Source: an uncultured Alphaproteobacteria bacterium (GTDB taxonomy: Bacteria; Pseudomonadota; Alphaproteobacteria; Caulobacterales; Aquidulcibacteraceae). From it: DNA of 64,000 nucleotides. The stretch lies in the NCBI GenBank assembly GCA_902826335.1, contig CADEEL010000008.1, positions 18,798 to 82,797 on the forward strand, written 5' to 3'. The notes under the pieces were generated by a model. The model saw only the letters and a list, made by a program, of their open reading frames with translations, had not been told where the DNA came from and searched no databases. Position 1 is the first letter of the stretch; every line of letters starts with the position of its first letter. The translations under genes were made by a program, and so were the position numbers. Below are positions 3,613 through 63,290 of the stretch, piece by piece.

Positions 3613-4353
3613 AACCAAGCCCGCGAACGCCGCCTCGGCGGGCAAAGCCATACCAAAGAGGCGCCCCTGCGCCATCGTGCAGCCCAGTTCGCGCAGCAGG
3701 CGCGCGTGCGCCTCGGTCTCGACGCCCTCGGCGATCGTCGCCACGCCAAGGTCGCGCGCTAGCGTAAGGACGAATGCAAGCACCGTGTGCCCACGCGCCT
3801 CGCCCGCGCAAGCCACGAGCGTGCGGTCGATCTTGATCGCGTCGATGGGCAAGTGCGCGAGCCAGGCGAGCGAGGAATGGCCGGCGCCGAAGTCATCCAA
3901 GGCAATGCGGGCGCCGCGCTGGCGCAAGGCGGCGAGCGCGGCCGCCGCGCGCTCGAGATCCGGCAAGGTGTGGTGCTCCGTCAGCTCGAACAACAATGCG
4001 CCTTTGGCGAGGCCCAGCTTCTCCGCCGTATCGAGGAGGCGCTCAGCGCCGCCATCGAACAAATCCGTATCGATGATGTTAAGCGACAATGACAGCGCCG
4101 CGCCGCGAGACCGGCGCGCGAACGCGTTCAACGCCAACAGCGCCGCGTCGCGGCCGATGGCGGCGTGCTCATTAGTCCAATTCGCGGCGGGCAGAAAGTC
4201 AACGGCGTCCATCACCACGCCGTTCTCGCCGCGCCAACGCGCCAACGCTTCGAACCCCGCTATGGCGCCATCGTCCAAACGCACGATGGGTTGGAAGTGC
4301 GCTTCCAAGCGGCCTGGACCCGCCGCGGCGATCAAGGATGCGTGTGCGCTCAC
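3610..4353 (-). CDS. EAL-domain cyclic-di-GMP phosphodiesterase (stand-alone)
   Basis: A compact EAL protein of about 247 aa with no sensory domain. Key motifs are intact: GFEALARW, the metal-ligand Asn in LSLNI, ELTE, LDDFGAG, AIKID, AEGVETEA and QGRLFG. Active hydrolysis of c-di-GMP is therefore likely. The longest frame starts at an ATG at 4401 and would overlap the upstream GNAT gene by 52 bp. A GTG at 4353-4351 overlaps the GNAT stop as GTGA, so I prefer translational coupling from that codon; the extra N-terminal residues are not needed for the domain. It is the last gene of the minus-strand cytochrome-oxidase block. Confidence 0.88.
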   Translation of the reverse strand: MSAHASLIAAAGPGRLEAHFQPIVRLDDGAIAGFEALARWRGENGVVMDAVDFLPAANWTNEHAAIGRDAALLALNAFARRSRGAALSLSLNIIDTDLFDGGAERLLDTAEKLGLAKGALLFELTEHHTLPDLERAAAALAALRQRGARIALDDFGAGHSSLAWLAHLPIDAIKIDRTLVACAGEARGHTVLAFVLTLARDLGVATIAEGVETEAHARLLRELGCTMAQGRLFGMALPAEAAFAGLV

Positions 4354-4949
4354 ACGTTCGCGTCCGGGTTGATCCGCCCAAAGAGCAAATGATCGCGCCA
4401 CGCGCCATTGATCTTCAGGTAAGCGCGTGCGCGGCCTTCCGCCTCAAACCCGTTGTTCACGAGCACGCGCTGGGAGGCGATGTTATCCGGCTGGCAGGCG
4501 GCTTCGATACGGTGCAGACGCAAATCCGTGTATGCAAACCGCAGCACCGCCGCCACCGCCGCGCTTGTGTGGCCACGGCGCTGATAAGGCGCGCCGATCC
4601 AATAGCCAAGCGAAGCGGCCTGCGCCACGCCGCGCCGCACTTGACTCAAAGTGACGCCGCCGATCAGGCGCTCATCACCCGCCGCGAACACGTAAAACGG
4701 ATAAGCGCGCCCCTCCGCGATGTCGTGCAGGTAGCGGCGTATGCGCGCGCGAAACGCCGCCTTTGAAAACTCGTCCTCAGGCCAGGTCGGCTCCCAGGGC
4801 GTCAGGAAGGCGCGGCTCTGCTGGCGCAGCGCCGCCCAGTCCGGGAAGTCGCGGGTTTCCGGATGGCGCAGCGTGACGCCCTCTCCGCTCAAGACCGCGC
4901 CAGCCTGCGCCGCTCCCTCCCGCTTTGGAAACACCATCGCGCGCCTCAC
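4350..4949 (-). CDS. GNAT N-acetyltransferase, RimJ/RimL type
   Basis: A 199-aa protein with the RimJ-like fold signature: GVTLRHPETRDFPDW at the N-terminus, the acetyl-CoA loop GYWIGAPYQRRGHTSAAV, and the late motif ASQRVLVNNGFEAEGRAR. RimJ/RimL enzymes acetylate the N-termini of ribosomal proteins, but close relatives use other amine substrates, so the target is not certain. Its ATG overlaps the stop of the M16 peptidase by 4 bp (ATGA), and its own stop overlaps the likely GTG start of the EAL gene, indicating a coupled operon. Confidence 0.88.
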   Translation of the reverse strand: MRRAMVFPKREGAAQAGAVLSGEGVTLRHPETRDFPDWAALRQQSRAFLTPWEPTWPEDEFSKAAFRARIRRYLHDIAEGRAYPFYVFAAGDERLIGGVTLSQVRRGVAQAASLGYWIGAPYQRRGHTSAAVAAVLRFAYTDLRLHRIEAACQPDNIASQRVLVNNGFEAEGRARAYLKINGAWRDHLLFGRINPDANV

Positions 4950-44186: not shown

Positions 44187-45014
44187 ATGAGCGCGGACAA
44201 GGTTCGAATTGGCGTCGCGGCGCCCGGATCGCGCATGGAATTCGACATCGCCGAGGCGACAGCCGCGCTGGCCGCCGCCATCTACGGGGACCGTGTCGAG
44301 ATCGTCTTCCGCCCGCAATGTTACGAAAGCTGGGGCCACTTCGCGGGGACCGACGAAAGCCGCGCGGCGGCATTTGTGGAGATCGCCAATGACCCAGCGT
44401 TCGATGCGCTCTGGATCGGGCGCGGCGGCTATGGCGCGTGCCGCGTAGCGCCGCTGGTTTTGCCGCGTCTCACGCCCGCCGCGCAGGCAAAGACTTATCT
44501 GGGCTACAGCGACGCCGGCGCGCTGCTCGGCGCGCTGCAGCGCGCCGGGTTCCAGCATATCGCGCACGGGCCGATGCCCACTGATATCCGCCGCACGGGC
44601 GGCGCGGCGGCGGTCAAGCGCGCGCTTGGTTGGCTCGTCGACCGCACGCCCGAAGCCGTTGAGCCACATGCGCGCGCCGCGCCAAGCGTTGCGTTCAACG
44701 TAACGATCCTCAGCAATCTCATCGGCACGCCGCATCAACCCGATGTCGCCGGCCGCGTGCTGATGCTCGAGGAGGTGTCCGAATACGCGTATCGGATCGA
44801 TCGCTCGTTGTGCCACATCACCAGCAACGCCGAGGTCCGGCGCGCGGCGGGCCTCCGCCTTGGCCGTTGCAGCGACATTCCGAAAAACGATGTGGATTTC
44901 GGCCAGACGGAAGAGGAGATCGCGCGCCATTGGTGCGCGATCTCAGGCATTCCCTATCTCGGCCGCGCCGATATCGGTCACGACATCGACAACAAGATCG
45001 TGCCGTTTTCTTAA
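44187..45014 (+). CDS. ldcA: LD-carboxypeptidase (peptidase S66)
   Basis: A 275-aa cytoplasmic serine peptidase that trims the terminal D-Ala from recycled murein tetrapeptides. IGVAAPGSRMEF opens the fold, WIGRGGYGACRVAP and YLGYSDAGALLGAL contain the substrate loop and nucleophilic Ser, and LEEVSEYAYRIDR and LGRADIGHDIDN supply the Glu and His of the triad. The family usually has GGYGSNR; here the loop reads GGYGACR. It is divergent from the Mur ligase gene with a 56-bp gap. Confidence 0.88.
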   Translation: MSADKVRIGVAAPGSRMEFDIAEATAALAAAIYGDRVEIVFRPQCYESWGHFAGTDESRAAAFVEIANDPAFDALWIGRGGYGACRVAPLVLPRLTPAAQAKTYLGYSDAGALLGALQRAGFQHIAHGPMPTDIRRTGGAAAVKRALGWLVDRTPEAVEPHARAAPSVAFNVTILSNLIGTPHQPDVAGRVLMLEEVSEYAYRIDRSLCHITSNAEVRRAAGLRLGRCSDIPKNDVDFGQTEEEIARHWCAISGIPYLGRADIGHDIDNKIVPFS

Positions 45015-46228
45015 GGCGACGCCGCGCCTGGACGCGGAATCGACTCCAAGCGCCGCCACACCTGCGTTTGGCAAAACGGTCCAGCGCAGCCGCGCAGACG
45101 CAGCACATCCCCATCAAGCGTGATCTGGCCCCGATAGGCGCGCCCATCTTCTGGGCTGACGAGCACGCCATCGCGAAACGCGCCGTCCCGCCAGGCCGCG
45201 TCGCGCAGCATGAGGCCGCCCACGGCGCCTGCACGCATGGAGCGCGGATCCCACGCCCAGACAAGGCGCCCACACAGGTGCGCCGCGTTCTCGGCGCAGG
45301 GCGCCAGGCGCACAACCGCGCCGAGGCCGGGCGTGGCCCAGTCTCCAGCCACCGCGCTCGGCGCCACGGCATGCGCCTGCTGCGGCGCGCCGAGGAGGGC
45401 GAAGGCCGCGACGCCGGCGGCCACGGCGCCGGTCTGCGCGCGGCTCGCGCCATGCGCGGCGCCCTTCCGCACCGCGGCGGCGAAGCGCTGCGCGTATTCG
45501 GGATGCTCAGTGCCCATCGCCCGATCCCAGAACGTGAAATAGAGGCCGTAATTCCAGCCCGATTGCGCATGGTGCAGATCGTGGTGGGTTGTGGTGGTGA
45601 GCCAGTCGAACAGCGGGCGCCCATCGCGCGTGGCCGGCATCAGCTCATAGCCCGCGTGGCCAAGCGTGTTGCGCACGATCTGATGCAGCATGAAGAGGCC
45701 CACGGCCGGCCATTGCGTCGGCACGAGGATCATCCACACCGGCACGAAGGACGCCATGATCGCCGCCTCGCCGAGATCGAAGCTGTACGCGGTGAAGGGC
45801 GAGGGATTGTGGCTCCTATGGTGGCGGCGATGAAAGCGCCGGAACAGGCGCGGATCGTGCATCAGTCGATGCGCCCAATAGAAATAGGCGTCATGCGCGA
45901 GGATCATCAGCGCCAAGCTCGCCCAGAACCAGACTGGGCCCCAGCCACGCGCGATGTCCGGCCCCGGCAGCCAGCCCGCCCGCTCCAGCATGAATGTGCC
46001 GAGCCCGATTGTGGAGAAAATCGCGATGGAGCGGATCGAGACCAGAAACTCGATCACCAATTGACGCGCGGGCGGGCTCTCCGGGCGAATTTTGCGCCCA
46101 CGCAGGGGGATGGCTAGCGCCACCCACAGCACTAGCCAAACGCCGATGGCGAAGATGACATAGCGGCCGAGATCGGTTGACATATTTTCGAGCCATTGGC
46201 GGCCCGTATCGAGTATGAGGTCATACAT
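45011..46228 (-). CDS. Sterol desaturase-family membrane protein fused to a DUF2147 domain
   Basis: A 405-aa protein starting MYDLILDTGRQWL. Residues about 1-245 are a fatty acid hydroxylase/sterol desaturase domain with several helices and the di-iron His clusters HRLMH (120-124), HRRHHRSHN (133-141) and HHDLHH (215-220). Residues about 258-287 form a basic then hydrophobic stretch ending QQAHA, like an internal signal peptide. Residues about 290-405 match DUF2147 (VAGDWATPG, CGRLVWAWDP, YRGQITLDGDVLRLRGC). The DUF2147 part should then be periplasmic. The substrate is unknown. An AraC-type regulator gene lies 92 bp upstream on the same strand. Confidence 0.85.
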   Translation of the reverse strand: MYDLILDTGRQWLENMSTDLGRYVIFAIGVWLVLWVALAIPLRGRKIRPESPPARQLVIEFLVSIRSIAIFSTIGLGTFMLERAGWLPGPDIARGWGPVWFWASLALMILAHDAYFYWAHRLMHDPRLFRRFHRRHHRSHNPSPFTAYSFDLGEAAIMASFVPVWMILVPTQWPAVGLFMLHQIVRNTLGHAGYELMPATRDGRPLFDWLTTTTHHDLHHAQSGWNYGLYFTFWDRAMGTEHPEYAQRFAAAVRKGAAHGASRAQTGAVAAGVAAFALLGAPQQAHAVAPSAVAGDWATPGLGAVVRLAPCAENAAHLCGRLVWAWDPRSMRAGAVGGLMLRDAAWRDGAFRDGVLVSPEDGRAYRGQITLDGDVLRLRGCAGPFCQTQVWRRLESIPRPGAASP

Positions 46229-46319: not shown

Positions 46320-47396
46320 TCAGCGAGGATTTTCGGGAATCGGCGCACCTTCGGCCAAAGCGCGGCGACGCCATTGGGTCGGCGTTTCGCCTGTCTCCTC
46401 CTTGAACGCGCGGTTGAAGGGCCCGAGCGACCCAAAGCCCAAATCGAAGGCGATGGCGGAGACCGGGCGTAGCGCCTGGGCGGGATCGGCGAGCGCGCGC
46501 CGCGCGGCCTCGATGCGGCGGGCGTTTACGAACGCCGCGAAGTTGCGATGACCCAGCCTGTCATTGATGAGGCGGCGCAGGCGATGCTCTGGCGCGCCGA
46601 CCTCCTCGGCCAGCGCGCCGATGGTGAGCCCCTCGCGCCGCCAGCCTTCGCCGGCGCTCATGGTAGTCTCAAGCCGGTCCAGGATCGCGCGGTCCGCGCC
46701 ATCTGACGCCTCCGGCGCCGCGTGCTGGCCCTCGCCGGCAAGCGAGGCTCCAAACAGCCCCTCCCGCGCTTCGAGGAACCACGCCGCGCCGGCGACGCTG
46801 AAAACGGCCAGCGCACCCGCGCCCGCCAGGCGGAACCACCAGGCGAACACGCCCAGCCCCTCTTCGGCGATTTCAAATCCAGCGAGCACGATCGTGAACA
46901 ACGTCACGAACGCCATGAACGGGCCGCGCATGCGCCGGCGCGCCTCAACCAAATCCCCGCGCCAGGACCGGCGAATGACGATCAGAACATGGGCGGCCAG
47001 CGACACCTCGAGCAGATTGTGCGCCACCCATATTCCGTTGCGGAGGGGCGGTTGCACGGAGAGGCCAAAGAAGCCCACACCCAGCAACACGAGGGCCGGC
47101 GCAAATAGCGGCCAATCCGGCCGCCGATCCTCGAAGAGCGTGACGACGAACATCCAAAACAGGCCGCTGCCGCCCATCGACAAGACATGCACAACCGGCA
47201 GGAAGGGCCCGAGCGCATTGTGCGTGGCCGGCGTCGAATTGAGCGCATAGGCGACGACGCTCGCGAAAAAGAGCGCGCTGGCGACGCGCATGCCAAGCGT
47301 TGAGGCGCCGCGATGAACGCCGGCTGCGGTGGCGATCAGCGCGCCGATGGCGACGCCGCGCAGCACCAATTCAAATATCAGGATTGGGTCAGGCAC
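46320..47396 (-). CDS. Membrane-bound AraC-family transcriptional regulator
   Basis: A 358-aa protein with about seven hydrophobic helices in residues 1-215 and a C-terminal AraC helix-turn-helix domain (about 250-350). The recognition elements are LTIGALAEEVGAPEHRLRRL and AIAFDLGFGSLGPFNRAFKE. Membrane-tethered AraC proteins sense a lipid or envelope signal by an unknown mechanism. It precedes the desaturase-DUF2147 gene on the same strand, which makes that gene its likely target. Confidence 0.88.
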   Translation of the reverse strand: MPDPILIFELVLRGVAIGALIATAAGVHRGASTLGMRVASALFFASVVAYALNSTPATHNALGPFLPVVHVLSMGGSGLFWMFVVTLFEDRRPDWPLFAPALVLLGVGFFGLSVQPPLRNGIWVAHNLLEVSLAAHVLIVIRRSWRGDLVEARRRMRGPFMAFVTLFTIVLAGFEIAEEGLGVFAWWFRLAGAGALAVFSVAGAAWFLEAREGLFGASLAGEGQHAAPEASDGADRAILDRLETTMSAGEGWRREGLTIGALAEEVGAPEHRLRRLINDRLGHRNFAAFVNARRIEAARRALADPAQALRPVSAIAFDLGFGSLGPFNRAFKEETGETPTQWRRRALAEGAPIPENPR

Positions 47397-62375: not shown

Positions 62376-63290
62376 TCATTCCGCCGCGACGCGCGCCGCC
62401 CAAGCCGCCTTGAGGCTCGCGCTTGTCTTGCGCGACCCATCCGGGCTCCAACCGGGCGGACCGAACATATAGCCCACCACCTCGCCAATGTTGCGCGCGC
62501 CGCGCACATCGCGCCAGATTCCCACCCATTCATGAAACGCGATGCGGAACGGATTGAACGAACCCAGATTAGAAATCACGCCATAGCGCGGCCGATCATC
62601 ATCGCGTTCGGCCACGAACGTGCCGAACAGGCGATCCCAAATAATGAGCACGCCGGCATAGTTCGCGTCGAGATAGCGCGGATTGGTGGCGTGGTGCACG
62701 CGGTGGTGCGAGGGCGTGTTCATCACCCATTCAAGCGGGCCCATGCGGCCGATCAGCTCCGTGTGAATCCAGAATTGATAGACAAGACTGATGCCGGAGA
62801 AGAGCAGCGTCATCGCCGGCGGAAAGCCGAGCAAGGTCAGCGGCAGCCAGAAGATCCAGGAGAGCGAGACCGCGCCCGTCCAAGTTTGGCGCAGCGCCGT
62901 GCTGAGATTGTAGTGCTGCGACGTGTGATGGATGACATGGCTGGCCCAGAACCAGCGCCGCTCATGGGCGATGCGATGAAACCAATAATAGGCGAGGTCC
63001 TCGCCGAAGAAGCAGAGCGCCATCGACCACCAGGCCCAGGGAATGTCGAACGCGCGATACTCATAAAGAACAACGTGCGCGGCCAGCACCAGCCCGCCAA
63101 GCAGCGCGCCGACCACGGAATTGCCAAACCCCATCATCAGGCTCGATGCGGAATCCGCCGCGTTGTATTGGCCTCGCCCGGTGATCCGCACCACGATCAT
63201 CTCAAGGATGACGAGCGCCACGAAGCCCGGCACCGCGAGGGTGACGATATCCAGACTGGCGAGACGCGCCTGCAGTTCCGGCGAAATCAT
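62376..63290 (-). CDS. Sterol desaturase/fatty acid hydroxylase family protein
   Basis: A 304-aa membrane protein with the di-iron histidine clusters HRIAHE, HVIHHTSQHYN and HHRVHH, and about five hydrophobic helices. The family hydroxylates or desaturates sterols, carotenoids, fatty acids or sphinganine; the substrate is unknown. The start at 63290 was chosen because its ATG overlaps the stop of the upstream gene (ATGA). It is the second desaturase-family gene in the window and lacks the DUF2147 tail of the first. Confidence 0.91.
   Translation of the reverse strand: MISPELQARLASLDIVTLAVPGFVALVILEMIVVRITGRGQYNAADSASSLMMGFGNSVVGALLGGLVLAAHVVLYEYRAFDIPWAWWSMALCFFGEDLAYYWFHRIAHERRWFWASHVIHHTSQHYNLSTALRQTWTGAVSLSWIFWLPLTLLGFPPAMTLLFSGISLVYQFWIHTELIGRMGPLEWVMNTPSHHRVHHATNPRYLDANYAGVLIIWDRLFGTFVAERDDDRPRYGVISNLGSFNPFRIAFHEWVGIWRDVRGARNIGEVVGYMFGPPGWSPDGSRKTSASLKAAWAARVAAE

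Follow-up and report, generated by a model that had tools for sequence, protein, structure and literature searches.

To our knowledge, bacterial proteins with a cleavable signal in the middle of the chain have rarely been described. FbcH of Bradyrhizobium is a cytochrome b/c1 precursor which is cut at an internal signal sequence, and its cleavage has been demonstrated. In the FA_hydroxylase superfamily (PF04116), to which sterol desaturases and lipid hydroxylases belong, the His boxes bind the iron of a di-iron site. As judged by titles and the openings of abstracts, a literature search brought up no recognisable bacterial polyprotein with a mid-chain signal of this kind; in full text, no paper combined DUF2147 with 'desaturase', and none was obtained for sterol desaturase combined with Caulobacter and AraC.

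The window, i.e., the whole stretch of DNA analysed here, comprises 64,000 nucleotides of an uncultured Alphaproteobacteria bacterium (contig CADEEL010000008.1), and positions 46228-45011 of its minus strand were found to form a single uninterrupted frame of 405 amino acids and a stop codon, with zero internal stops. A preliminary description had proposed a sterol desaturase fused in one frame to a DUF2147 domain; its coordinates (45011-46228) are correct, the strand, which it left unstated, is minus, both domains score above the Pfam gathering cut-offs, and its overall reading is upheld. The features of the locus are the following:

46320-47396, minus strand: upstream regulator with about seven hydrophobic N-terminal segments and a C-terminal AraC-type HTH (HTH_18)
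45464-46228, minus strand: desaturase/hydroxylase half, membrane (residues 1-255)
45509-45913, minus strand: match to FA_hydroxylase PF04116, sterol desaturase superfamily (residues 106-240; Pfam 97.6 bits, cut-off 31)
45368-45463, minus strand: internal segment resembling a signal peptide (residues 256-287; a basic start precedes a hydrophobic core, and A285-H-A287 occupies -3/-1)
45014-45367, minus strand: predicted mature DUF2147 lipocalin-like domain (residues 288-405; C311, C319, C381 and C386 conserved)
45050-45346, minus strand: match to DUF2147 PF09917 (residues 295-393, whole profile 1-112; Pfam 48 bits, cut-off 27)
45011-45013, minus strand: stop codon of the fusion gene

PF04116 and PF09917 were each matched by Pfam in all 14 aligned fusions, PF04116 above its cut-off in every one. 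Our preferred reading, held with moderate confidence, is that the gene encodes a polyprotein, in which signal peptidase I would part a lipid oxygenase of the membrane from a lipocalin-like partner in the periplasm, with the AraC regulator adjoining. The 3' ends of the fusion gene and of a convergent LD-carboxypeptidase gene (44187-45014) share four bases, 45011-45014.

The distribution of the fusion is sparse. In a survey of 60 genomes of the same family, it was present at 14 loci in 13 genomes, 13 of the frames being complete and one ended by a contig edge, while a class sample of 385 genomes held the full-length fusion in 5, the window's own included, with 4 further genomes outside the same family. 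In a phylum sample of 398 genomes searched at E 1e-40, the only full-length match was the window's own. A set of 101 distinct desaturases was drawn from the same-family loci, the best 80 of 560 confirmed named loci and the class sample; 35 of them are fused, 6 adjoin a separate DUF2147 gene and 60 are without DUF2147 in the sequence examined (L148 and L195 were labelled as fused by hand, as were all six pairs), and the fusion sequences are akin to one another, so that these counts are not independent events. The preliminary description had named relatives that always keep two separate genes as a finding against it, and the 35 fused desaturases in this set, which includes the best 80 of the 560 loci, contradict that. 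The 60 desaturases without a DUF2147 partner indicate that the partner is dispensable for the enzyme as such, which counts against the preferred reading. Among the best 80 of 560 loci and the class sample, the fusion-bearing records are named Caulobacter, Phenylobacterium, Hyphomonadaceae, Marinicaulis, Hyphomicrobiales and Ruegeria isolates. On the complete plasmids of Ruegeria sp. THAF33 (NZ_CP045385.1) and of Haliscomenobacter hydrossis DSM 1100 (Bacteroidota; NC_015511.1), the fusion is annotated as one CDS, and CP096134.1 is another complete record which carries it. In the H. hydrossis fusion (L246 5115-6536), the DUF2147 domain is doubled in tandem; the plasmid stretch around it encodes a further sterol desaturase as well as an MFS transporter and an MBL-fold hydrolase. 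Genome G068, which has an intact fusion, also contains a second desaturase copy (L078 3768-4488) whose match is spread over two frames and which is probably a broken gene.

Residues 1-255 are most likely a membrane di-iron lipid oxygenase or desaturase, an activity predicted from the family match and from His 120, 124, 133, 136, 137, 191, 215, 216, 219, 220 and 242, which are invariant in the 14 fusions. NCBIfam supplies no specific enzyme name for this half; OlsE, an ornithine-lipid hydroxylase and the one lipid hydroxylase listed there (NF052566), scored 14.5 bits where the cut-off is 475, a similarity at chance level only. Zero matches were obtained among PDB sequences, either with the whole fusion protein in phmmer or with profile A1. 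Elsewhere in the window, a distant FA_hydroxylase-type match lies at about 62616-63050 on the minus strand (33% identity over 96-241).

The AF2 model of the DUF2147 domain, made with an alignment of 62 of the 74 domains collected, is an eight-strand barrel (pLDDT 91.5, pTM 0.84), and the closest solved structure is the Helicobacter pylori lipocalin HP1028 (PDB 4INN; Foldseek E 4.6e-4), which compares with the model at Z 12.2 and rmsd 3.1 over 109 residues, while the next natural proteins reach Z of about 8 and fatty-acid- and retinol-binding proteins rank below HP1028 in Foldseek. The profile of the 62 domains also matches HP1028 at 3.5e-6, the only PDB sequence with E below 1. As the predicted model shows the eight-strand barrel of a solved lipocalin, by which a lipocalin/calycin-like fold is recognised, DUF2147 is on this model lipocalin-like, and it may bind a hydrophobic ligand. 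In PMC10600179, HP1028 is given as the modelled match of a DUF2147 protein from Treponema, and so the relation between DUF2147 and HP1028 is already in print for that protein. That DUF2147 here serves as a lipid-binding partner of the enzyme is a tentative suggestion, to which we give slightly less than an even chance. A second type of DUF2147 fusion was seen in the window's genome (contig C23 27713-28525; L087, oriented 3967-4791), where the domain follows a small membrane domain with roughly four helices, and likewise at L092 2616-3695, both being joined via a signal-like stretch with the end TPAAAQ. The L087 gene adjoins another FA_hydroxylase gene (Pfam 7.9e-25), and a full-length relative occurs in 1 other genome among 249 of the order (G053, 63%).

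The linker between the two domains had been noted in the preliminary description for its likeness to a Sec signal at about residues 258-287, basic at the start, hydrophobic in the core and ending in QQAHA, and this likeness is borne out at residues 256-287: a net positive start is followed by a Kyte-Doolittle peak at 264-282 and then by QQAHA-V (hyphen at the candidate site), so that, as in a Sec signal, a basic start and a hydrophobic core precede small residues at -3/-1. A285 and A287 are Ala in all 14 aligned fusions and are the sole invariant columns from the desaturase end to the first DUF2147 strand, while the window protein's linker (257-292) has 13 further Ala positions, at which the other sequences retain Ala in 44 of 164 cells (27%). 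In an unconstrained alignment of 34 fusions, from which L195 with its short degenerate tail was left out, Ala stands at column 287 in 30 fusions and one of A/S/V/G at column 285 in 30, and the segment start is net positive in 31. The shuffle, site-score and start-codon tests covered 33 of the 35 fusions, L148 (ended by the contig edge) and L195 being left out. With a matrix derived from 21 E. coli signal peptides, the median site score was 4.13 for the fusion segments (n=33), -3.56 for TM helices of the same proteins (n=132) and 7.00 for signal peptides of separate DUF2147 proteins (n=37); 24 of the 33 segments score above 95% of the TM-helix controls and 9 do not, and the fusion segments score below the separate signal peptides (p 0.02). 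After the core, [AVSGT]x[AGS] was found in 33/33 fusions against 30.6 expected from shuffled linkers, and strict AxA in 22 of 33 against 14.8, neither being separated from chance; the plain -3/-1 rule test is uninformative because the linkers are so Ala-rich.

Residue +1 of the candidate site (column 288) is Gln in 10/14 fusions and in 17 of the 27 occupied positions of the 34-row alignment, and the internal segment of H. hydrossis reads LLASQAVSA-QSVAG. According to PMC5837995, most signal peptidase I substrates of Bacteroidetes expose an N-terminal Gln (the Q-rule), and AVSA-Q of H. hydrossis fits this rule. The Gln preference after the predicted cut is strong in the fusions, although the Q-rule was described for Bacteroidetes. 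Judged from its sequence, the fusion protein is probably cleaved; the earlier idea that cleavage could free the second domain gains support from the invariant Ala at -3/-1 (14/14), and the cut itself is what we infer from them.

As for topology, the medians of Lys/Arg are 6.0 in the His-box loops, 4.5 in the helix 1-2 loop and 1.0 in the helix 2-3 loop, a pattern which, together with the positive start of the segment, fits His boxes inside and DUF2147 outside. Moreover, cysteines 311, 319 and 381 are kept in 33/34 fusions and cysteine 386 in 32/34, as might be expected for periplasmic disulfides. The DUF2147 domain is thus placed very probably in the periplasm; the preliminary description had put it there, and the conserved cysteines and the lipocalin-type fold speak for that location within a topology that is itself predicted.

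In the scheme which we infer for topology, cleavage, disulfides, ligand and pathway, residues 1-255 would be embedded in the inner membrane with the His boxes on the cytoplasmic face, while residues 256-287 would act as an internal Sec signal peptide and start translocation of the remaining chain. Signal peptidase I would then cut after A287, the spent signal might stay in the membrane as the last helix of the oxygenase, and the released product would be a disulfide-bonded, lipocalin-like DUF2147 protein of 118 residues, delivered to the periplasm in a fixed ratio to the enzyme. Most likely the enzyme would modify a membrane lipid and the periplasmic barrel would bind, carry or sense the lipid or its product, with the adjacent membrane-bound AraC regulator controlling the enzyme/barrel pair.

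Instead of being cut, the segment might remain as a permanent extra anchor, so that DUF2147 would be periplasmic but tethered to the desaturase in one bifunctional protein. By 19-residue Kyte-Doolittle hydrophobicity, the segment is indistinguishable from the enzyme's TM helices, and so could be such an anchor, and it is likewise indistinguishable from real signal peptides; the weak site scores of 9/33 fusions also agree with an anchor, as does the AF2 model, which draws one long helix (244-275) into the segment with pLDDT below 50 from residue 258 on. A tether, however, needs no Ala at -3/-1, and both are kept while the linker drifts, its identity falling to 38-39% and its dN/dS reaching 0.59-0.78 in two comparisons with the window's gene; in the natural gene pairs, moreover, this partner is secreted as a protein of its own. 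We therefore regard a permanent anchor as unlikely, though it deserves to be taken seriously, and prefer a cleaved polyprotein.

It would be very improbable, by comparison, that the DUF2147 half is also translated from an internal start in the linker, with the fusion a by-product of overlapping genes. In-frame ATG/GTG/TTG codons do occur in 31/33 linkers, and pairs with overlapping stop and start exist, but ATG is present in only 11/33 linkers, ATG with a ribosome-site-like stretch in 1/33 and any start with such a stretch in 5/33, while the window's gene has two GTGs, neither of which has one. Scarcely credible is an artefact of assembly or sequencing, or a chance run-on of two adjoining genes, for which it may be said that many of the genomes are draft MAGs and that long open frames arise in GC-rich DNA. 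Against it stand the fusions in complete records (CP096134.1, NZ_CP045385.1 and NC_015511.1) and in many lineages, as well as nine pairwise comparisons with dN/dS of 0.06-0.21 in the desaturase, 0.08-0.34 in DUF2147 and 0.10-0.78 in the linker; because the values of the desaturase and DUF2147 are low, each half is kept by purifying selection. The frameshift or assembly error which the preliminary description had weighed against its own reading does not apply, as the frame is intact and conserved in relatives, and the fusion is practically certain to be real.

Six natural desaturase/DUF2147 gene pairs were found (L005, L143, L173, L140, L165 and L176). Stop and start overlap as ATGA in L005, L143 and L173 and as TGATG in L140, while a short gap lies between the genes in L165 and L176; the separate DUF2147 protein has its own clear signal peptide in five pairs (L005, L143, L140, L173 and L176), that of L165 being diverged and of uncertain start. 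On the desaturase tree, which was built by a quick method and has long branches as a caveat, no fewer than 15 changes of the fused label are required, of which well-supported branches force 6, and on the DUF2147 tree, whose resolution is poor for so short a domain, 7 are required and 3 of these are forced. L115 and L109 pair as sisters among the desaturases (support 96), yet their DUF2147 domains come from different clades, and the second domain was therefore swapped or joined more than once. Pairs L005 and L143 have near fused relatives in both trees, and in these two fission is as possible as fusion, since the trees give no direction of change. The earlier proposal that a desaturase gene was joined to a secreted DUF2147 gene is thus matched by the six pairs, while on its direction, fused or split ancestor, the trees are silent. 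We lean slightly towards a recurrent polyprotein, divided by signal peptidase I, that originated or exchanged its second domain on more than one occasion in Alphaproteobacteria and occurs in Bacteroidota too, with the AraC regulator as its constant neighbour.

The AraC-type regulator lies 91 nt upstream of the fusion gene, and each of the 34 fused loci that offer over 900 nt of sequence has a homologue upstream, 28 of these homologues being on the same strand and 6 on the opposite one; in Haliscomenobacter, an AraC-type gene (HTH_18) likewise precedes the fusion. Since same-strand homologues also occur at 5/5 pairs and 53/58 lone desaturases, the regulator is a partner of the desaturase and not specifically of the fusion, possibly a membrane-bound transcription factor kept beside this desaturase family. 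Muropeptide-recycling neighbours, namely the LD-carboxypeptidase (Pfam) and what we take to be an Mpl-type ligase, were considered as functional partners and rejected, since of the 35 fused loci the window's is the only one that has them nearby.

If the preferred reading is true, a single chain supplies the cell with two proteins, each in its own compartment. The natural fused and split versions offer a ready comparison for the making of a secreted protein from the tail of a membrane protein. The link to a desaturase also provides the DUF2147 family (unknown function) with a fold and with lipid modification as its likely field. Like the FA_hydroxylase superfamily, the fusion protein has the Pfam match and the invariant His residues in 14 fusions; unlike it, the fusion protein bears a secreted domain at its C-terminus. 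Compared with HP1028, DUF2147 shares the predicted fold and the profile match and here makes up the tail of an enzyme in the membrane, whereas most DUF2147 matches in the order are short frames which fit separate secreted proteins. The closest parallel in design is FbcH, in which an internal signal, cut by signal peptidase, similarly links a membrane protein to a periplasmic one; the proteins themselves are unrelated, and the cleavage demonstrated for FbcH is predicted for the desaturase-DUF2147 fusion.
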